In this document: piece after piece, positions 7,531-15,408 of the stretch | How positions within the stretch are numbered: the stretch's first letter is position 1 | Layout of the letters: the number at the start of each line of letters is the position of its first letter | Source: Rhizobium halophilum | GTDB lineage: Bacteria > Pseudomonadota > Alphaproteobacteria > Rhizobiales > Rhizobiaceae | NCBI RefSeq assembly: GCF_021648825.1 | Contig: NZ_JAKJHS010000001.1 | Coordinates: 310,001-374,000, forward strand | DNA: 64,000 nucleotides | Direction: 5' to 3' | Translations under genes and position numbers: made by a program | The notes under the pieces: model-generated | Told to the model about the DNA's origin: nothing | The model's database searches: none | Seen by the model: only the letters and a program-made list of their open reading frames with translations

Positions 7531-8472
7531 TCAGTCCGCTCGGATCAGCCGCCCCATGTCGCTTGCGAGCGTCAGCAGATTGCGGAGTGCGGCGCTACGA
7601 CTGAACGGCGACCAGACGGCCGAGAACGGCACTGGCTCCGGCTCATCCGCGAATGGGACGAAGACAACACCGGATGTTGGCAAGAGCGACGTAGCCGCTC
7701 CGACGATGGTGATGCCGAATCCCTGTCCGACCATGGACAGCAACGTGCCTCGCTCTACGTCGAAACGCAGGATCGACGGCGCAGACCAGCGCCCGGCAAG
7801 GCGCAGCACGATATGGTCATGGACTTGCGGACCCGTGCCGCCATGGCGGACAAGGAAAGCCTCGCCGAACAGATCGGCCCAAGTGATTGCCGACTGCCCG
7901 GCGAGGCGATGCCTATCCGGCAGCACGGCCACCAGCGGTTCGGTCCAGATCGGGCGAGAATGGCAGTCGGGCAGCTCGGGCGTGCCGGCGACGAACGCCA
8001 CGTCCAGCCGGTCGGCGCGAAGCTGCATCACCGCATCGCGGGCCGTGCCTTCGGTGATATCGACCTCGATGCCCGGATGGTTTTTCCGATACTGCCCGAT
8101 CAGATCGGCGAGGAAGCTGCGGGGAATCAAGGCATGGATGCCGATGCGCAGGCGACCATATTCCCCCACCGCTGCCATGCCGGCCGTCTTCACCGCATGG
8201 TCGAGTTGATCGACGCCGGCCGCTATCCGCTCGACGAAGTGGCGTCCGGCCTCCGTCAACCGGACGCCTCGCGCATGGCGCTCGAACAGGAGGATGCCAA
8301 GGTCTTCTTCCAGCGCCTTGACGCGCGCGCTGACGCTGGATTGCGCCACGCCGAGCGCACTGGCGGCGTGGCGGAAGTTTAGATACTCGGCAACGGCGAG
8401 CGTCTGAATCAAGGACGCGAGGGGAATGCGCGATCCGAGTGAGGTCGGCACTCCCCTTTGACGGTCGATCAT
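7531..8472 (-). CDS. LysR-family regulator next to the conjugation cluster
   Basis: 313 residues from the ATG at 8472 (MIDRQRGVP), the usual LysR length. An in-frame ATG at 8499 is possible, and the frame is open further up only because it reads through the neighbouring chimeric gene. The winged helix-turn-helix (FRHAASALGVAQSSVSARVKALE) lies near residues 35-57, followed by a substrate-binding-type effector domain. Tn4371-like elements often carry a LysR gene (traR) before traG, and this gene sits in that place and orientation. Control of transfer genes is inferred from position. Confidence 0.83.
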   Translation of the reverse strand: MIDRQRGVPTSLGSRIPLASLIQTLAVAEYLNFRHAASALGVAQSSVSARVKALEEDLGILLFERHARGVRLTEAGRHFVERIAAGVDQLDHAVKTAGMAAVGEYGRLRIGIHALIPRSFLADLIGQYRKNHPGIEVDITEGTARDAVMQLRADRLDVAFVAGTPELPDCHSRPIWTEPLVAVLPDRHRLAGQSAITWADLFGEAFLVRHGGTGPQVHDHIVLRLAGRWSAPSILRFDVERGTLLSMVGQGFGITIVGAATSLLPTSGVVFVPFADEPEPVPFSAVWSPFSRSAALRNLLTLASDMGRLIRAD

Positions 8473-8519
8473 TGGCGCTGAATGTTGCCGCCGTCGCATC
8501 CGCTGAACCCGCTCGGCAC

Positions 8520-9122
8520 TTATTCGTCGGGCGTGCAAACGCGCAGGCGATGCCCATCTGGATCGAGAGCAACAAATGTGCGCCCGAAGACCGCTACACT
8601 CGGCTCCTGCTCGATTGCCACGCCAGCGGCTCGCCAAGTATCGTAAAGCCGATTTACCGCTGCGTCGTCGTCCACCATAAATGCCAGTTCAAAGCGATGA
8701 CCAGTTCCAGACACGATGACCGCCGGGGCAGCATAGATCCTGCCGTCGCTGGACACGGCTTCGAATACGCCGTGTTCCCGACGGAGAGCTGAAATCCGCG
8801 TCCCGGTCTCGATACGGTGGCCGCCTACCTTCGCATACCGGGCGAGATACGCCGCGAACTCGTCTTTGGTAGCATATCCCTCCGTATCGCCTGGAAGGGG
8901 CAGCCCAGGGAGGCTGCTGATGCTCCGCGGCGTGAAGAGCGTCAGTGTTTCGTAACGCTGCCGCCAGCTATCGCCGACCGCGGCGCCGGCGTCCACCATG
9001 AGGTAGTCGACCCCCGCCTTCTTTAGTTCGTTCGCGGCGGCAAGCCCCGCCTGTCCTGCGCCAATGACGAGGACCTCCGTCCGACGGGTTCCACTGCGGC
9101 TGTCGCTGACGTCGATCGACAT
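8520..9122 (-). CDS. Chimera: N-terminal flavin monooxygenase fragment fused to a VOC C-terminus
   Basis: 200 residues from the ATG at 9122 (MSIDVSDSR). An upstream TTG at 9164 is unlikely. Residues about 13-140 are the start of a flavin-containing monooxygenase: the FAD-binding motif VLVIGAGQAGLAAANEL, then GDSWRQRYETLTLFTP and the PGLPLPG/ATKDEFAAYL blocks. From about residue 143 the sequence becomes the tail of a glyoxalase/VOC protein (FELAFMVDDD, then FGRTFVALDPDGHRLRV). The monooxygenase lacks its NADPH site and second half, and the VOC part lacks its first half. A single reading frame spans the join near 8700. It probably arose by deletion; function is unlikely but not excluded. Confidence 0.75.
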   Translation of the reverse strand: MSIDVSDSRSGTRRTEVLVIGAGQAGLAAANELKKAGVDYLMVDAGAAVGDSWRQRYETLTLFTPRSISSLPGLPLPGDTEGYATKDEFAAYLARYAKVGGHRIETGTRISALRREHGVFEAVSSDGRIYAAPAVIVSGTGHRFELAFMVDDDAAVNRLYDTWRAAGVAIEQEPSVAVFGRTFVALDPDGHRLRVCTPDE

Positions 9123-9209
9123 GCCTAGAGCCCGCCGGAGTGAGGTCTTGCATCCTCGCCGCAAGGGTTGCAGCCTTCACGCAGCTCCCGACGTTGATCG
9201 TTCGTCACG

Positions 9210-10307
9210 TCAGTCTCCGGACGCCTGGTCGGAGATGCTACCGGCTCCCGCCCTCTTCCTCGCACCCTGGAATGGATCGGCAAGTGCCGCCTCCGGCCGG
9301 CTGACGGGATATTTGATGCCGGAGATGGTGGCCGCCAGCTTCTCGGGGCCGTTCTTCTTCAGAAGGGTGCGGAAGCTGGGATGCATTCCCCCGTCGACAT
9401 AGGCGGTGACGGGAGACGCCTTGCTCTCGGCCAAGGCGGCGTCAACCTTCTGCTTCTCCGCTTCGATCTTCGCAATGAACTGCGGATCCGGCTGCGTGAC
9501 AGGGATTGGACAGGCTGCCAGTGGATCGCGTGGTTCGCCACCTTCGAAGGCTGTATTGAACACGTAACGCCGACCGCAGGCCGAGACCTTCGGCTGCTGC
9601 CTCGTAAGTTCGAAGGCGTCGTAGCCCTCTTTGAGCGTGCGCCAGAACGGCAGGTTCTCGTCACCCCTATGAAGAGCCATGTTTTCGGCCGTCATGCGGA
9701 ACGGATAGGCCTGAACCTGGAAGTGGTTCTGACCGGAGGAGAGCGCCTTTGAGACGATCGCGTAAATCTCGCCGACGCCCTGGTCAGTGAGAGCGTAGCA
9801 TCCTGCGGAAGAACATGCGCCATGAACCATAAGCGCGTCACCCGTATAGCCGAGAGCGGATTCGAGCCGATTGGGATAGCCGAGATTGAACGACACGTAG
9901 TACTGAGACTTCGGGTTCAGCATGCCCGCCGTCACATGGTAGAAGCCTTCCGGAGCCTGACGGTCCCCGTTTTTTGTCTTCGGACCAAGCTTCCCTGACC
10001 ACCTGCACATCGGATAGGTCTTGAGCAGCGCGTAGCGCCCTGACCCGTCCATCTTCCAGACTTCAAGTTCGCTTTCCTGCTTGAAGATCCTTACAAGGAC
10101 TGGGCTCCCGGCCTTCATGCCCTTCGTCGACATTTCCGCGATAATCTTGCTCGGGATCTGCGGCGGAGCCTTGGCGGCCCCGTCCAAGGCCATATCGGCT
10201 GCAACGCAACTCGACAGCAGCAGTCCCACGGCCGCCATGCCGGCGAAACGACGTATCGCATGCTGAAGGGAAGTGTTCCTGCTTCGGACGGTCGCGATCA
10301 AGTGCAT
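9210..10307 (-). CDS. L,D-transpeptidase (YkuD family) lipoprotein
   Basis: 365 residues from the ATG at 10307. An ATG at 10364 would give a longer, poorer leader. The N-terminus is basic, then AVGLLLSSC forms a lipobox, so the protein should be anchored in the envelope. The YkuD catalytic motif is present as HGACSSAGCYALTD near residues 162-175, with the nucleophilic Cys near 169. Such enzymes make 3-3 peptidoglycan cross-links or attach proteins to the wall. The C-terminal third is helical, charged and unassigned. A MerR-type promoter (10413-10443) reads directly into it, which suggests metal control. Confidence 0.87.
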   Translation of the reverse strand: MHLIATVRSRNTSLQHAIRRFAGMAAVGLLLSSCVAADMALDGAAKAPPQIPSKIIAEMSTKGMKAGSPVLVRIFKQESELEVWKMDGSGRYALLKTYPMCRWSGKLGPKTKNGDRQAPEGFYHVTAGMLNPKSQYYVSFNLGYPNRLESALGYTGDALMVHGACSSAGCYALTDQGVGEIYAIVSKALSSGQNHFQVQAYPFRMTAENMALHRGDENLPFWRTLKEGYDAFELTRQQPKVSACGRRYVFNTAFEGGEPRDPLAACPIPVTQPDPQFIAKIEAEKQKVDAALAESKASPVTAYVDGGMHPSFRTLLKKNGPEKLAATISGIKYPVSRPEAALADPFQGARKRAGAGSISDQASGD

Positions 10308-10412
10308 TCCTCTGACGTTGGTCGGTGAGCTCGTGCTGCTTTTCGGGACCAAGGTCCCTCTCATGTCGCTCGAAGACCACCGCAGAACATTACGGATCGT
10401 CGAAACTGTGCC

Positions 10413-10443
10413 ACCCTAAAACCTCTAGCGGCTTTAGCTGCAA
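10413..10443 (-). promoter_or_regulatory. MerR-type promoter/operator before the L,D-transpeptidase
   Basis: On the minus strand TTGCAG (10443-10438) and TAGGGT (10418-10413) are separated by exactly 19 bp, the long spacer that marks MerR-activated promoters. The plus strand of the spacer reads ACCTCTAGCGGCTTTAGCT, an imperfect dyad whose left half is identical to the perfect palindrome before the P-type ATPase at 15386-15404. It lies about 110 nt upstream of both the L,D-transpeptidase (minus) and the MerR gene (plus). Confidence 0.7.
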
Positions 10444-10554
10444 GAGGAAAAGTAACCCGTGTCACCCCCGCATGCCGAGCTGTTACAGGGAATGTTGACT
10501 TCACGATGGCGGGTGGTCGCGCTGGGATGAACTGCAACGACCGAGAGGATCCAA

Positions 10555-10971
10555 ATGCTGACGATCGGCGACATGGCAAAGACAACCGGCGTGAAGGTGC
10601 CTACCATCCGCTACTACGAGCAGATGGGTCTGCTTTCGCATGCAGAACGTTCCGAGGGCAACCAGCGCCGTTACTCCAGGAGCGAGCGCGACCGGCTTTC
10701 ATTCATCAAGCATGCGCGGGAACTTGGCCTGACGATAGAGGCGATCCGTGAGCTCATCGACCTCAGCCAGCATCCCGAGAAGCCATGCGCGGAAGCCGAT
10801 CGTATCGCGGCGGAGCAGCTTGCGACGGTACGCCAGAAGATCGCGAAGCTGAAGAAGCTGGAGGCGGAGCTCGAACGGATTTCGACCCATTGCCACTCCA
10901 ACCATGTGCGCGACTGCTACGTTATCAGGGCGCTGGCCAACCATGACCTTTGCGAGACGGATCACGATTAA
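10555..10971 (+). CDS. MerR-family metal regulator, CadR/PbrR-like
   Basis: 138 residues with GAGAGGA before the ATG. The helix-turn-helix (LTIGDMAKTTGVKVPTIRYYE) starts at residue 2, followed by a long dimer helix and a C-terminal metal loop. Three cysteines match the Cd/Pb/Zn-sensing pattern of CadR/PbrR: one in KPCAEAD near residue 80 and a pair spaced C-x7-C in HCHSNHVRDC near 112-120. The gene diverges from the L,D-transpeptidase and lies near the Zn/Cd ATPase. Both of those have matching MerR-type promoters, so it is the likely regulator of both. Binding of copper instead is less likely given the Cys in the dimer helix. Confidence 0.88.
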   Translation: MLTIGDMAKTTGVKVPTIRYYEQMGLLSHAERSEGNQRRYSRSERDRLSFIKHARELGLTIEAIRELIDLSQHPEKPCAEADRIAAEQLATVRQKIAKLKKLEAELERISTHCHSNHVRDCYVIRALANHDLCETDHD

Positions 10972-11100
10972 GTCGACGAGCCACACTATCGAACTCCGAA
11001 GCGGCAAGACTTCGGCCCATTAGGATTTTATTGACCATACTCGCTTCTACTAGGGCTTCCGGATCCGACCGCGATCCGTTGTAGCGTGTAGGAGTGTGCG

Positions 11101-12369
11101 GTGAGCGAGTACTGGAAGGGCATCGTCGGCCGTGTCGTAGCGACGGCTTTTCGAAGCGTCGCGGGAAGAACCTGCACTGCAGCTCTGACTGCGATGGCGA
11201 TCTTCGGTTCGCCGGGCGCCGCAGCCGCGGAGGAACGTGCGCTGAAGCTCTTCTTCACGCACACTGGCGAACGGGCGACCATCACCTACAAGCGCGACGG
11301 CCGGTTTGACCAGAAGGGCCTTGCGCAGGTAAATCGCTTCCTCCGGGACTGGCGAAAGAACGAGCCGGCGCGCATGGATCCCCGCCTCCTCGATCTCGTC
11401 TGGGAGATCTACGGCCGGAGCGGCGCCAAGGACTACATCCATATCGTTTCCGCCTACCGTTCGCCCGGCACGAACAAGATGCTCCGCGGCCGCTCGCGAA
11501 GCTCCGGCGTCGCCAAGAACAGTCAGCACACGCTCGGCAAGGCGATGGACTTCTACATTCCTGGCGTCAAGCTCTCCAAGCTCCGGGCGCTGGCGATGCA
11601 GGCGCAGGTCGGCGGCGTCGGCTACTATCCCACATCCGGATCGCCCTTCGTCCACCTCGACGTCGGGAACGTCCGCGCATGGCCCCGCATGTCCCGCCAG
11701 GAGCTCGCAACCATCTTCCCGGACGGCAAGACGATGCATCTTCCATCCAACGGCAAGCCCCTGCCTGGTTACCAGCAGGCGGTCGCGGACTACAAGCGGC
11801 GCGTCGGTTCGAAGTCGATCGAGATCGCCAGCACCGCTGGCGGAAGACGCTCGTCCAGCGCCGGAAGCAGCCTTCTCACCGCAATGCTGCCGACACCGAA
11901 AAGCCGCGCACAGGAGGCTCTGGACCTACAGGGAGGAGCGCTCGTCCAGGATCTTGACGAACCCAGCCCAAGCTACGTAGACCTTGCCTCCTTTGCCGTC
12001 CCCCTCCCCATGCTTCGGCCTGCCGCCATCGCGGAGGCGGCTCCCGTGGAGACGGCGTCTCTGGGACCGGTCACGGCTCTAGCTGCCGTCACTCTCGGCG
12101 GAGAGATGCCGCTCTCGAACCTGCGGCAGCCGTCGACCGACACGCTCGGGTTCCTTCGGTCGGAGACGGATGACGAAGACGAATTCGACTCCGAGGAAGC
12201 GATCATCTCTTGGGCGCTTTCGCCTCCTGGCAGCTCGACGGGCATGAGAGCGCCGGCGTTCCTCTTCCAGTCCGGCGCGACCGAGGCCGGCGTTCCTTCG
12301 AACGACGCACCGGTCCCCATGCCTGATGAGCCGAAATTCGATACGGGACGCTTCTGGTCGGGCAGCTAG
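11101..12369 (+). CDS. DUF882 / M15-like murein peptidase, exported
   Basis: 422 residues with a GTG start at 11101 preceded by AGGAG. A signal segment (TAALTAMAIFGSPGAAAAEE) ends near residue 46. The DUF882 domain covers about residues 50-200. Zinc-ligand motifs of the M15/MepK group are visible: SAYRSP, QHTLGKAMDF (H-x6-D) and VHLD. Members cleave peptidoglycan peptides, MepK-type ones at 3-3 cross-links made by L,D-transpeptidases. The C-terminal half is Ser/Ala/Pro-rich and looks disordered. The pairing with the L,D-transpeptidase on the other side of the MerR gene is notable. Confidence 0.85.
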   Translation: MSEYWKGIVGRVVATAFRSVAGRTCTAALTAMAIFGSPGAAAAEERALKLFFTHTGERATITYKRDGRFDQKGLAQVNRFLRDWRKNEPARMDPRLLDLVWEIYGRSGAKDYIHIVSAYRSPGTNKMLRGRSRSSGVAKNSQHTLGKAMDFYIPGVKLSKLRALAMQAQVGGVGYYPTSGSPFVHLDVGNVRAWPRMSRQELATIFPDGKTMHLPSNGKPLPGYQQAVADYKRRVGSKSIEIASTAGGRRSSSAGSSLLTAMLPTPKSRAQEALDLQGGALVQDLDEPSPSYVDLASFAVPLPMLRPAAIAEAAPVETASLGPVTALAAVTLGGEMPLSNLRQPSTDTLGFLRSETDDEDEFDSEEAIISWALSPPGSSTGMRAPAFLFQSGATEAGVPSNDAPVPMPDEPKFDTGRFWSGS

Positions 12370-12419
12370 TTCTTGCCGGCGGTTCGGGGCCGCCAGCCGG
12401 GCTGAAGATCGAAGAAATG

Positions 12420-12457
12420 ACGAAGGCGCTCGACCCGTTTCCGGGGAGCGCCTTCGT
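12420..12457. terminator. Stem-loop downstream of the DUF882 gene
   Basis: A perfect 12-bp stem (ACGAAGGCGCTC at 12420-12431 pairing with 12446-12457) encloses a 14-nt loop, about 50 nt after the DUF882 stop. No T-run follows on either strand, so it is either a weak or Rho-assisted terminator or an mRNA-stabilising hairpin. It also separates this gene from the convergent PCuAC gene. Confidence 0.45.
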
Positions 12458-12586
12458 GGACCCGGACAACTGCAAACGCGCGGCCGAGAGCGGCGCTGCA
12501 GGCAGTCATCTATGACGGGTGGTGAACCCTAGGTATGAGCTGGCTGCCTCAGTTTCAAGGGCTTCGGGTCTTGGTCACCTGCCATC

Positions 12587-13093
12587 TCAGGGCTTCGAAT
12601 GTCCCGTGTGATCCTCGGCGGGAGCCGGGGTCGACGCCTTGGCCTGGACGACGAATTCCACCTCGACCTGGCCTGCCTTCTCGAACTGCAGGGTCGCCTT
12701 GAACTTCTCGCCCTCGGCTGGACGCTGCTTCGGGTTCACGAGCATGATGTGGGCGCCGCCCGGCATCAGGTTCAAGGATTCTCCTGCGGGGATTTCGATG
12801 CCGCCCTTCGCCGGACGCATGCGGGCGACGCCGTCTACGAGCGAGGATTCATGCAGTTCCATCCGTTCGGCGACAGGCGTGCTGCCGCCGACAAGTCGAT
12901 CGGGCTCGCTGCCTGTGTTGACGATGGTGAGATATCCTCCAAGAACCGGTGCGACCGGAGGCGCTTTGGCAGACCACGGGTGCTTGAGCTCGAGGCTTCC
13001 CACCTTGAAGTCGTGGGCCGTGGAGATGCCTGGAGCGATGCCCGCAGTAACGACCGCTGCAAACGCGAGGGCCTTGATGATTTTGTGCTTCAT
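12587..13093 (-). CDS. PCuAC-type periplasmic copper chaperone
   Basis: 168 residues: a signal peptide ending at STAHD (residue 27), then a cupredoxin-like PCu(A)C domain. The copper motif is clear: MELHESS, MRP and HIML, following the H-M-x10-M-x21-H-x-M pattern. These proteins hand Cu(I) to cytochrome oxidase or to resistance proteins in the periplasm. The C-terminus adds a His-containing tail (EDHTGHSKP). It is third in a minus-strand unit after the P-type ATPase and a 23-codon ORF whose stop overlaps this start as ATGA, so translation is probably coupled. Confidence 0.9.
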   Translation of the reverse strand: MKHKIIKALAFAAVVTAGIAPGISTAHDFKVGSLELKHPWSAKAPPVAPVLGGYLTIVNTGSEPDRLVGGSTPVAERMELHESSLVDGVARMRPAKGGIEIPAGESLNLMPGGAHIMLVNPKQRPAEGEKFKATLQFEKAGQVEVEFVVQAKASTPAPAEDHTGHSKP

Positions 13094-13161
13094 GATTTCA
13101 ACTCGATATGCTCGGGATACTCTTTGGTCATCAATTCGAACATTTCCGCAGGACTCGCCAT
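13090..13161 (-). CDS. Possible 23-aa microprotein or coupling ORF
   Basis: A 23-codon ORF (MASPAEMFELMTKEYPEHIE and three more residues) starts 2 nt after the ATPase stop (TAGTGATG). Its own stop overlaps the start of the PCuAC gene as ATGA. The whole 70-nt gap between the two genes is therefore open and perfectly spaced for translational coupling. No similarity is recognised. It may be a leader that couples the chaperone to ATPase translation rather than a functional peptide. Confidence 0.38.
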   Translation of the reverse strand: MASPAEMFELMTKEYPEHIELKS

Positions 13162-13163
13162 CA

Positions 13164-15347
13164 CTATCTGATCGGACGCAGCAGGCGCAGCGCGTTCATG
13201 GTCACCAGCACGGTTGCTCCGGTATCGGCAAGGATGGCCGGCCACAGCCCGGTGATCCCGATGATCGTCGTGACCAGAAAGACCGCCTTGAGGCCGAGCG
13301 CGATGGTGATGTTCTGGTAGATGTTGCGCATCGTGCGCTTCGAGAGATCGACCATGAGGCCGACGTCGCCCACCCGCCCATGCAGAACCGCTGCATCCGC
13401 AGTCTCCAGCGCTACGTCGGTTCCGCCGCCCATGGCGATCCCGACGTCGGCGGCGGCAAGGGCCGGAGCGTCGTTGATACCGTCGCCGATCTTGCCGACC
13501 ACGAATCCTTCTCGCTTGAGCTCGCCGACTATCCGCTGCTTGTCTTCGGGCATCAGTTCAGCGCGGACCTCGATGCCGAGCTGAGCTCCGATGGCGGTGG
13601 CTGTCCGCTTGTTGTCGCCTGTCAGCATGATGATCTTGATGCCCGCATCCGTCAGCGTCTTCAGCCCGGCTACTGCGTCGGCCCGCGGCTCGTCTCTCAT
13701 GGCGATCGCACCCGCGAGGACGTTTCCGATGACGAGAACGGAGACGGTCTTTCCTTCGTCGTTAAGGGACGTGATCGTCTTCGAATGCGCCATCGGCACC
13801 GAAACACGTTCGGCGGCGGCCCTCGGCGAGCCGAAGAACACCTCGACCCCGTCGATCACTGCGGTCACGCCCTTTCCGCCGAGGGCCTTGGCGTCGGTGG
13901 CTGCCGGAGCATCGATCCCGTCCTCGTCGGCCCTTTCGAGCACCGCCAAAGCGAGCGGATGGCTTGAGCCCATTTCGAGCGCGGCTGCATAGCGCAGGAC
14001 CTCGTGGACCTTTCGGCCGAACGGCACGACGTCGGTCACCTTGGGCTTGCCTTCCGTGAGCGTGCCCGTCTTGTCGAAGGCGATGGCGGTAAGCTTGCCA
14101 AGTCCTTCAAGAACGGCGCCGCCTTTCAGGAGCAGGCCGCGGCGCGCACCCGACGACAGCGATGCGGCGATGGCGGCCGGCGTCGAGATGACGAGGGCAC
14201 ACGGGCAGCCGATCAGAAGAACTGCGAGCCCCTTGTAGAGCCATTCGCTCCAGACGCCGCCGCCGAGCAGCGGAGGGATGACGGCGACCAGCGCGGCCAC
14301 GACGACGACCCCCGGCGTGTAGTAGCGGGAGAAGCGATCGATGAAGCGTTCGGTCGGAGCCTTCGATTCCTGCGCCTCCTCGACAAGCCTTACGACGCGG
14401 GCGATGGTGTTATCGGCGGCGGCGGCCGTAACTCTCACACGTAGCGCAGCATCGCCATTGACCGTGCCCGCGAAGACATTGTCCTCGACGGCCTTCCGGA
14501 CGGGAACGCTCTCACCTGTAACAGGGGCCTCGTCGACCGAACTCTCGCCCGCGACGATGACGCCGTCGGCCGAGATCCGGTCGCCTGGGCGGACGAGGAT
14601 GATCGCACCCACTTCAAGCGTCTCTGCGGGAACTTCGCGGTTCTTCCCGGCCTCCTCCAGCATCGCCGTCTTGGGCACCAGTGCCGTCAGCGATCTGATG
14701 CTGTCGCGCGCCTTGCCCGCAGCCACGCCCTCGAGCAGTTCGCCTACCAGGAACAGGAACACGACGGCGGCCGCCTCCTCCGTGGCGTCGATGAACAGCG
14801 CGCCGACGGCGGCGATGGTCATCAGCATCTCGATCGAGAACGGAGTGCCTGCCATTGCCGCCATGATGGCGCGACGGGCGATCGGAACGAGGCCGACCAG
14901 CATTGCGACGATAAACGCGTAGGTCGCAATGTCAGGGAACAGAAGACCGATGCCGTAGGCAAACACGAGTGCGGCGCCCGCCATGATGGTCAGGCGGCCC
15001 TTCCCGCTCCTCCACCAGGGTCTTTCGGACGGGCCGTGGTCGTGGTCGTGGTGGTTGGCGTGATGTTCGACCCCGGAGCCTACACCGTGCGCGTGTTCCG
15101 TCACCGGGGTAGCAGAAGCCGACCTCGGACGTATTGGCGTCGCCTGAAATCCCAGCCCCGAGAGCTTCGTGCCCACGGCCTTGAGATCGCTGGCGTAGTC
15201 ATGGGTGACCGTCATCGTACCGGCAGTCACGGAAACGGTGACGTCGGAGATGCCAGGCATGCGCCTGACGGCCGTGTCGATCTTGCTCGCGCAAGACGCG
15301 CAGTCCATCCCGTCGACGCGGAATTTCGTCTGTGTCGGCCCATTCAT
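13164..15347 (-). CDS. zntA: Zn/Cd/Pb-exporting P1B-type ATPase
   Basis: 727 residues from the ATG at 15347, which has GAGG 9 nt upstream. The ATG at 15371 would sit almost at the predicted transcript start. One HMA domain (GMDCASC, residues 13-19) is followed by a His-rich linker (HHANHHDHDHG). Then come the TGES actuator motif near 276, the CPC transport motif (IGCPCALVIS) near 380, DKTGTLTEG near 423 and GDGINDAPAL near 619. CPC together with DKTGTLTEGKPKVTDV fits the ZntA/CadA (P1B-2) group rather than CopA. A MerR-type promoter precedes it. Confidence 0.92.
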   Translation of the reverse strand: MNGPTQTKFRVDGMDCASCASKIDTAVRRMPGISDVTVSVTAGTMTVTHDYASDLKAVGTKLSGLGFQATPIRPRSASATPVTEHAHGVGSGVEHHANHHDHDHGPSERPWWRSGKGRLTIMAGAALVFAYGIGLLFPDIATYAFIVAMLVGLVPIARRAIMAAMAGTPFSIEMLMTIAAVGALFIDATEEAAAVVFLFLVGELLEGVAAGKARDSIRSLTALVPKTAMLEEAGKNREVPAETLEVGAIILVRPGDRISADGVIVAGESSVDEAPVTGESVPVRKAVEDNVFAGTVNGDAALRVRVTAAAADNTIARVVRLVEEAQESKAPTERFIDRFSRYYTPGVVVVAALVAVIPPLLGGGVWSEWLYKGLAVLLIGCPCALVISTPAAIAASLSSGARRGLLLKGGAVLEGLGKLTAIAFDKTGTLTEGKPKVTDVVPFGRKVHEVLRYAAALEMGSSHPLALAVLERADEDGIDAPAATDAKALGGKGVTAVIDGVEVFFGSPRAAAERVSVPMAHSKTITSLNDEGKTVSVLVIGNVLAGAIAMRDEPRADAVAGLKTLTDAGIKIIMLTGDNKRTATAIGAQLGIEVRAELMPEDKQRIVGELKREGFVVGKIGDGINDAPALAAADVGIAMGGGTDVALETADAAVLHGRVGDVGLMVDLSKRTMRNIYQNITIALGLKAVFLVTTIIGITGLWPAILADTGATVLVTMNALRLLRPIR

Positions 15348-15377
15348 GTGCGGGATCCTCATGCTGTCCATAAGGAT

Positions 15378-15408
15378 GGTCTACGACCTCTAGCCGCTAG
15401 AGGTGCAA
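15378..15408 (-). promoter_or_regulatory. MerR-type promoter/operator of the metal ATPase
   Basis: On the minus strand TTGCAC (15408-15403) and TAGACC (15383-15378) are 19 bp apart. The spacer contains the perfect 19-bp palindrome ACCTCTAGCGGCTAGAGGT (15386-15404). This is the architecture of ZntR/CadR/PbrR-activated promoters. The -10 box lies 30 nt before the preferred ATPase start. The same left half-site occurs before the L,D-transpeptidase, and the CadR-like regulator at 10555-10971 is the obvious candidate. Confidence 0.82.

Follow-up and report, generated by a model that had tools for sequence, protein, structure and literature searches.

Based on the promoter architecture of one stretch of Rhizobium halophilum DNA and on comparison with related loci, a ZntA-type heavy-metal pump and a YkuD-family lipoprotein are likely members of a shared regulon under a MerR-type regulator. 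The stretch (64,000 nucleotides, positions 310,001 to 374,000 of contig NZ_JAKJHS010000001.1, assembly GCF_021648825.1; hereafter the window) carries both genes on the minus strand, each behind a MerR-type promoter, with a merR gene between them. In the reading that we favor and consider rather probable, one divalent-metal MerR sensor activates the promoters of the pump and of the lipoprotein, a YafK/DpaA-type enzyme that cuts links between proteins and peptidoglycan, and metal defense probably includes envelope repair or remodeling. A sequence-only reading of the window had proposed one MerR regulon linking the pump with a cross-linking L,D-transpeptidase; the comparative evidence supports the shared regulon of pump and YkuD-family lipoprotein, and the part that did not stand is the cross-linking role.

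Two MerR-type promoters in the window

The elements on which the proposal is built are as follows.

15378..15408, minus strand: promoter/operator of the ZntA-type ATPase, TTGCAC-CTCTAGCGGCTAGAGGTCG-TAGACC (-35 at 15408-15403, -10 at 15383-15378, 19-bp spacer)
13164..15371, minus strand: ZntA-type heavy-metal P-type ATPase with HMA domain (family and profile matches)
10555..10971, plus strand: MerR-family protein, predicted divalent-metal sensor with Cys78, Cys113 and Cys121 (family match and alignment)
10413..10443, minus strand: promoter/operator of the YafK-like lipoprotein gene, TTGCAG-CTAAAGCCGCTAGAGGTTT-TAGGGT (-35 at 10443-10438, -10 at 10418-10413, 19-bp spacer)
9210..10364, minus strand: YafK/LdtF/DpaA-like YkuD-family lipoprotein, 384 amino acids from the first ATG

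The 19-bp spacers that the sequence-only reading had placed before both genes were confirmed, as were the perfect palindrome at the ATPase promoter (15386-15404, 9-1-9) and the imperfect dyad at the promoter of the YkuD-family gene (10421-10439, with 4/6 core arm pairs); the coordinates also bear out that the merR gene (10555-10971, plus strand) lies between the two target genes. MerR-regulated promoters typically have a spacer of 19-20 bp, according to the available text of PMC9909328, and both promoters have a spacer of this length with a palindrome inside it. The two 28-mers are identical at 22/28 positions, the best match over 200 dinucleotide-preserving shuffles of the window being 20. 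A relaxed MerR-type pattern (TTG-N3-CT-N3-G-N3-C-N3-AGG-N3-TA, one mismatch allowed) occurs at only two places in the window, the ATPase and YkuD sites, and is exact at both; 0.14 matches were expected from shuffles, and 0/100 shuffles contained two. The half-site ACCTCTAGNGGCT alone, with 2 mismatches allowed, gave 6 matches in the window against 3.35 expected, which is without significance, and the significance of the sites therefore lies in the full promoter architecture and not in the half-site. A generic palindrome score discriminates the sites more poorly than does the strict pattern used below.

Throughout the genome (4.35 Mb, 41 contigs), a pattern derived from the two sites and allowing up to 3 mismatches retrieved a third site besides these two, which have 0 mismatches by construction; a backward control pattern was matched once. 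This third site (3 mismatches) is situated upstream of a cation-efflux (CDF) gene, beside a merR paralogue that is 63% identical.

The site in related loci

Named loci of the best 80 of 542 relatives, together with the window, made up 81 stretches (3.28 million strand-bases), in which the strict pattern found 65 sites, and 0 in the reversed sequences. Chance resemblance of the two window sites was rejected on the strength of this control and of the shuffles. When related genomes were searched for the 19-bp motif near ykuD-type genes, as had been suggested, a strict site was found upstream of the yafK-like gene, on its sense strand, in 24/81 loci (the window and 23/80 relatives), a site being called direct when no more than about 320 bases separate it from the matched coding sequence. 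The best upstream-site scores are almost two-peaked, at 0-1 mismatch and at 3 or more mismatches; the one-mismatch sites of loci L117 and L129 were counted as direct, and those of L074 and L076 (one mismatch), L069 (2 mismatches) and L135 (exact, more distant) were left uncounted.

In a quick tree of 108 rows, with support from the Shimodaira-Hasegawa-like approximate likelihood ratio test (SH-aLRT) only, 33 rows have a direct site, 6 stand behind an operator-bearing zntA gene, and 4 belong to a unit of operator, DsbA, peptidyl-prolyl isomerase (PPIase) and yafK. The direct-operator state requires at least 4 changes, forced by starred branches, and 8 by parsimony; because some rows are identical or nearly so, row counts are not event counts. 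As for the zntA-yafK or DsbA-PPIase-yafK units, an exact operator stands before those of L069, L076, L127 and L128, and an operator with one mismatch before those of L106, L108 and L086. Sinorhizobium sp. M14, from the microbial mats of a gold mine, has such sites as well, before the ATPase and yafK-like genes of its plasmid pSinB.

Some of these loci show further arrangements. Operator, DsbA-like thioredoxin, PpiC-type PPIase and yafK-like gene form one apparent unit in L127, L128 and L086 (about 8360-11020). In Ensifer sp. BR816 (L074, about 9962-14015), three genes lie side by side: the yafK-like one, another of YkuD-like type (its SSGCVRL motif read by eye) and an operator-bearing zntA. 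A decayed yafK-like remnant (51 amino acids, 80%) is located behind a MerR-type site with 2 mismatches at G034:C3:45045-45409.

The operator class in the family

An even draw of 297 family genomes contained 93 with a yafK-like gene at E ≤1e-100, amounting to 115 copies. Among the genomes with sites listed (at least 150 sites), 26/64 yafK-like copies lie within 12 kb of a site, compared with 0/29 housekeeping paralogues in the genus genomes with a listed site (Fisher p 1e-5, with kinship ignored and with arms that differ in pattern and draw, the family draw using the exact pattern and the genus draw up to 3 mismatches). From the at least 150 sites of the family draw, 150 were listed, with 2 backward-control matches among them, and 120 of these were fetched; the 30 unfetched sites comprise 5 direct yafK-like sites, 2 other own-genome sites and 23 others, many near contig ends. 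The genes behind the 120 fetched sites, named by blastp against about ten reference proteins, are 73 ZntA-type ATPases, 19 CDF transporters, 3 DsbB-DsbA pairs, 1 DsbA-like protein, 3 Sco proteins and 21 others left unnamed. According to these tallies, the operator class mostly serves Zn/Cd-type efflux, envelope genes forming a minor branch. All three DsbB-DsbA pairs are near duplicates of a single locus, and the distance from site to gene start exceeds 500 nt for one of the Sco genes. A further DsbB-DsbA-CDF unit stands behind a one-mismatch site in Rhizobium sp. Khangiran2, and a genome of another family (G040) has an exact site followed by DsbB (by eye), a thioredoxin-fold protein and CDF. 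The position of this operator class before DsbA/DsbB and Sco genes in a few relatives is new and suggests that periplasmic thiol enzymes are part of the Zn/Cd response.

These envelope genes also lend themselves to a different explanation of the lipoprotein, which is possible but tentative: metals may poison periplasmic thiol enzymes, and the regulon may supply fresh copies of YafK-like, DsbA/DsbB and Sco proteins. A housekeeping YafK paralogue, of which the accessory enzyme could be a spare, is present in 57/57 genus genomes, and the tallied DsbB-DsbA, DsbA and Sco genes and the DsbA-PPIase-YafK units behind the operator are in keeping with such a role. The near copies among the DsbB-DsbA cases and the distant Sco gene lower the value of these tallies, PPIase is no known thiol enzyme, and metal poisoning of YafK enzymes is only presumed. 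With similar reserve, the Zn/Cd MerR regulon of Hyphomicrobiales may be conceived as a two-compartment program that couples efflux to cysteine enzymes and folding enzymes of the periplasm (YafK-like amidase, DsbA/DsbB, Sco and PPIase) and that would pre-emptively replace or retune those envelope enzymes which exported metal is going to poison. The lower symmetry of the operators before the envelope gene would then make that gene a second-tier, higher-dose output.

Other members of the operator class were encountered during the census. The stretch L229 (13089-15012) has divergent DsbB-DsbA-CDF and Sco genes with MerR-type sites on either side (14236, minus strand, one mismatch; 14321, plus strand), on a plasmid shared with the pump and a yafK-like gene. 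In L254, L287 and L296, MerR-type sites precede mutually similar membrane proteins (by eye) that resemble those of DUF1624 type. Sites of the form CTCAAG..CTTGAG stand before similar LysR-type regulator genes (by eye) in L232, L238, L240, L248 and L295 and possibly belong to another MerR subfamily. A SoxR-type identity of these variants was rejected: the SoxR box has an inner spacing of 4, and the spacing here is 3.

The regulator

Cys78, Cys113 and Cys121 of the regulator align with the metal-site cysteines of CadR, and the protein is likely, by its sequence, a MerR sensor of divalent (+2) metals. The metal ligands of CadR are Cys112, Cys119 and, from the other protomer, Cys77', and three cysteines mark sensors of +2 metals, as far as the consulted portion of PMC9909328 describes them. 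Among NCBIfam models, the Zn-responsive and CadR-PbrR models score best, all equivalogs remaining below cut-off (NF007069, 108.4 vs 143; ZntR, 99.5 vs 167.95; CadR-PbrR, 105.7 vs 151.45), as do MerR (102.9 vs 150.85) and CueR (102.4 vs 147.4). The closest solved structure is 5gpe, deposited as a MerR-family regulator and presumably of PbrR type. The earlier label "CadR/PbrR-like" is thus loosely right, being favored by the closest structure and not by any NCBIfam equivalog cut-off.

Regulator and operator types can be compared where half-sites differ. In Brucella grignonensis and Shinella lacus, whose identical protein rows count as one observation, the enzyme-gene site is CTGCAG..CTACAG, with CadR-type half-sites, and not of the CTCTAG..CTAGAG type; the same form is used in the rest of their own metal cluster, which consists of lspA-like and CDF-like genes (by eye), merR and the ATPase gene. 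The DNA-reading helix is VETIR in their regulator and V/IPTIR in the others compared. In regulator-operator pairs, a Pro-type helix goes with a G right half in 20/21 cases and a Glu-type helix with a C right half in 2/2, with few independent cases; the sole exception, L068, may be a mis-assigned neighboring regulator.

Control of the enzyme gene might lie with another MerR protein, in place of the adjacent merR product or alongside it. The genome has 9 MerR-domain matches, and the CDF-linked paralogue on contig C41, 63% identical, has a related site of its own, TTGAACCTATAGTGGCTAGAGGGATTAG. Such control is unlikely: a merR of the window kind is present in 26/81 yafK-like loci and an ATPase in 28/81, and the C41 paralogue is linked to a target of its own.

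The enzyme

The YkuD-family protein matches NF040599 (LdtF/DpaA/YafK) with E 4.3e-66 and a score of 222.5 against a cut-off of 365, and its best solved-structure match by far is 8ikr, E. coli DpaA (E 4.9e-55). A structure model was built from the window and locus sequences, with a mean predicted local distance difference test (pLDDT) score of 70, and a Foldseek search with this predicted model gave 8ikr at 2.8e-15 and LD-transpeptidases at 0.12 or worse (B. subtilis YkuD, 0.12). DpaA residues, taken from the list in the available part of PMC10653827, were compared across 81 accessory and 25 housekeeping proteins. The equivalents of Lys83, Met133, His135 and Cys143 are kept in 106/106 proteins; Tyr109 is found in 72/81 accessory proteins (Phe in 9; the window has Tyr) and in 25/25 housekeeping proteins; and Ala145 is found in 81/81 accessory proteins, where 25/25 housekeeping proteins have Ser. 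The Arg that follows the catalytic Cys in many LD-transpeptidases is absent, Ala being present in 81/81 accessory proteins. The lipobox Cys of the window enzyme is Cys53 and the catalytic residue Cys189, the relative in Pseudorhizobium flavum being annotated from the codon of residue 43. A lipobox-like motif was found in 78/81 open reading frames; the other 3 have long N-termini whose starts are probably misplaced. The lipobox Cys does not vary across a 35-row alignment.

The enzyme is, by sequence, subfamily kin of DpaA/LdtF/YafK, though no proven DpaA, and it is most likely a DpaA-like hydrolase and not a cross-linker. The idea that metal induces an L,D-transpeptidase, by whose 3-3 cross-links the wall is hardened, can appeal to YkuD superfamily membership with a catalytic Cys and to the record annotation "murein L,D-transpeptidase family protein"; it is nevertheless quite unlikely, because the closest family and fold are those of the hydrolase DpaA, the transpeptidase Arg is missing, and the YkuD Pfam score (23.3) falls slightly under the cut-off of 23.4.

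The site stays with the enzyme gene

The operator stays with the enzyme gene when merR does not. Three Ensifer loci (L134, L136 and L140) have a direct site and no merR relative in the fetched stretch. E. adhaerens Lc04 (7.1 Mb) has only two exact pattern matches, before the zntA-like and yafK-like genes on different contigs, and a 68% identical merR elsewhere in the genome; additional sites occur in the two remaining Ensifer genomes. In Rhizobium sp. Khangiran2, three genes (hypothetical, RelE/ParE-type toxin and Fis-family) separate merR from the enzyme gene, next to which the site remains, and in the L070 group merR is more than 3 kb from the enzyme gene, the site again being with the latter. 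The order of ATPase, PCu(A)C, DUF882, merR, site and enzyme gene is intact in P. flavum. In P. banfieldiae NT-26 (L226), the IS6-family element ISRsp9 (8224-8937) occupies the position of the P. flavum operator and merR, and this element directly upstream accounts for the lack of a site at the roughly 95% identical NT-26 gene. That the 10413-10443 site, placed as it is in the gap between divergent genes, serves merR autoregulation only, with the enzyme gene a bystander, is very improbable, since its -35 and -10 elements point toward the enzyme gene and the Ensifer, L070-group and Khangiran2 arrangements speak against autoregulation as its sole role.

Proposed mechanism

We infer that a cytosolic MerR sensor of divalent soft metals (Zn/Cd/Pb class) would bind inside the over-long 19-bp spacers and, once loaded with metal, activate the promoters of the ZntA-type pump and of the YafK/DpaA-subfamily lipoprotein. 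The lipoprotein would most likely cut amide links between meso-diaminopimelate and protein, and its benefit could lie in loosening or resetting the covalent bonds that tie outer-membrane proteins to peptidoglycan at a time when the pump fills the periplasm with metal.

Several observations weigh against this reading. Among the sites listed, an exact direct site stands before only 5/115 family copies, by a pattern that excludes CadR-type sites. No counted site was found in 65/108 tree rows, including a 20-row Agrobacterium-rich clade that was delimited in a separate tree of 75/81 main rows; counted among the 65 are L135 and L112, which have more distant sites, and rows with short flanks, L211 for example. 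Perfect core arms occur in 5/21 distinct enzyme-gene sites versus 22/29 zntA sites, in a comparison that includes the one-mismatch sites of L117 and L129 in the enzyme set, uses a slightly looser pattern for the pump and ignores kinship; by this lower symmetry, the enzyme-gene site may be weak, and it would fit a second-tier response. The CTCAAG..CTTGAG sites of Shinella are unlike its own zntA sites, and the CDF-linked C41 paralogue has a site of its own. With one mismatch allowed, backward control matches in the Ensifer genomes equal the pattern matches, so only exact whole-genome matches carry weight. As for the enzyme, the model has pLDDT <50 at 153-188, the active-site region, and Gln86, Arg108, Lys130 and Tyr131 of the DpaA cleft are replaced by Asn, Gln, Asp and Ala in the window enzyme. 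Given these four changes and the NF040599 score below cut-off, the window enzyme probably acts on another substrate than E. coli DpaA does.

If the proposed regulon is real, metal export is to bacteria a problem of the envelope, and what turns on the pump also turns on an enzyme that cuts or resets outer-membrane attachment. The poorly understood YafK family would gain a physiological signal outside enterobacteria, and metal-dependent changes in peptidoglycan-bound outer-membrane proteins of rhizobia would be predicted. The regulon would also provide an easy way to test whether thiol enzymes of the periplasm are what exported Cd/Zn really hits.

Neighboring genes

Three further predicted genes adjoin the elements above.

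12587..13093, minus strand: PCu(A)C copper-chaperone domain protein, downstream of the ATPase gene (family matches)
11101..12369, plus strand: Peptidase_M15_2 (DUF882) protein, MepK-like peptidoglycan endopeptidase (family matches)
8709..9131, minus strand: NAD(P)/FAD oxidoreductase remnant adjoining the YafK-like gene (only residues 27-167 of 400 matched)

The DUF882 and PCu(A)C genes are placed between the ATPase gene and the regulator gene, and their families are present in 10/81 and 16/81 loci, respectively. The DUF882/MepK-like protein scores below its NCBIfam cut-off (169 vs 185), and a search upstream of its gene within the window found no MerR site. At 8709-9131, the truncated FAD oxidoreductase continues into a glyoxalase-like end; in P. 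flavum, an FAD oxidoreductase gene directly follows the yafK-like gene.

Comparison with known systems

In the open-licence literature, whose silence is weak evidence of absence, no paper among the search matches listed links a YkuD or transpeptidase gene to a Zn/Cd MerR regulon; in the accessible part of PMC9138774, transpeptidase occurs only in a phytochelatin reference. E. coli DpaA/LdtF/YafK is a peptidoglycan-Lpp amidase, according to the available passages of PMC8263019 and PMC10653827. The window enzyme shares with it the YkuD-derived fold and the equivalents of Lys83, Tyr109, Met133, His135, Cys143 and Ala145; unlike DpaA, it is a predicted lipoprotein with about 100 extra C-terminal residues and a metal-type promoter, and Gln86, Arg108, Lys130 and Tyr131 are replaced. 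Agrobacterium tumefaciens, according to the consulted text of PMC11527210, has two LdtF counterparts, Atu3631 and Atu3332, and three outer-membrane proteins bound to peptidoglycan; the main text of that paper does not contain the word "metal", and CuCl2 is among the growth stresses used. Atu3332 is given as a lipoprotein in the accessible part of PMC12729407. Atu3631 and Atu3332 resemble the window enzyme as LdtF-type proteins of the same bacterial family; the difference is that the Agrobacterium-rich clade has no counted MerR site.

The window system resembles the ZntR, CadR and PbrR regulons that drive zntA or cadA in its dyad promoter with a 19-bp spacer, its ZntA-type pump and its three metal-site cysteines. 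It differs from them by the inclusion of the gene for a YafK-like envelope enzyme and, in a few relatives, of disulfide-bond genes. The pbr/cad clusters with lspA and CDF are MerR-controlled metal clusters that include a non-transport envelope gene, that of signal peptidase II, and in this respect they are a parallel to the window locus. Genes for lspA-like and CDF proteins were seen by eye in L138 and are annotated in L226. The extra gene is, in contrast, one for a YafK-like hydrolase here and for signal peptidase II in the pbr/cad clusters, and L138 has both.

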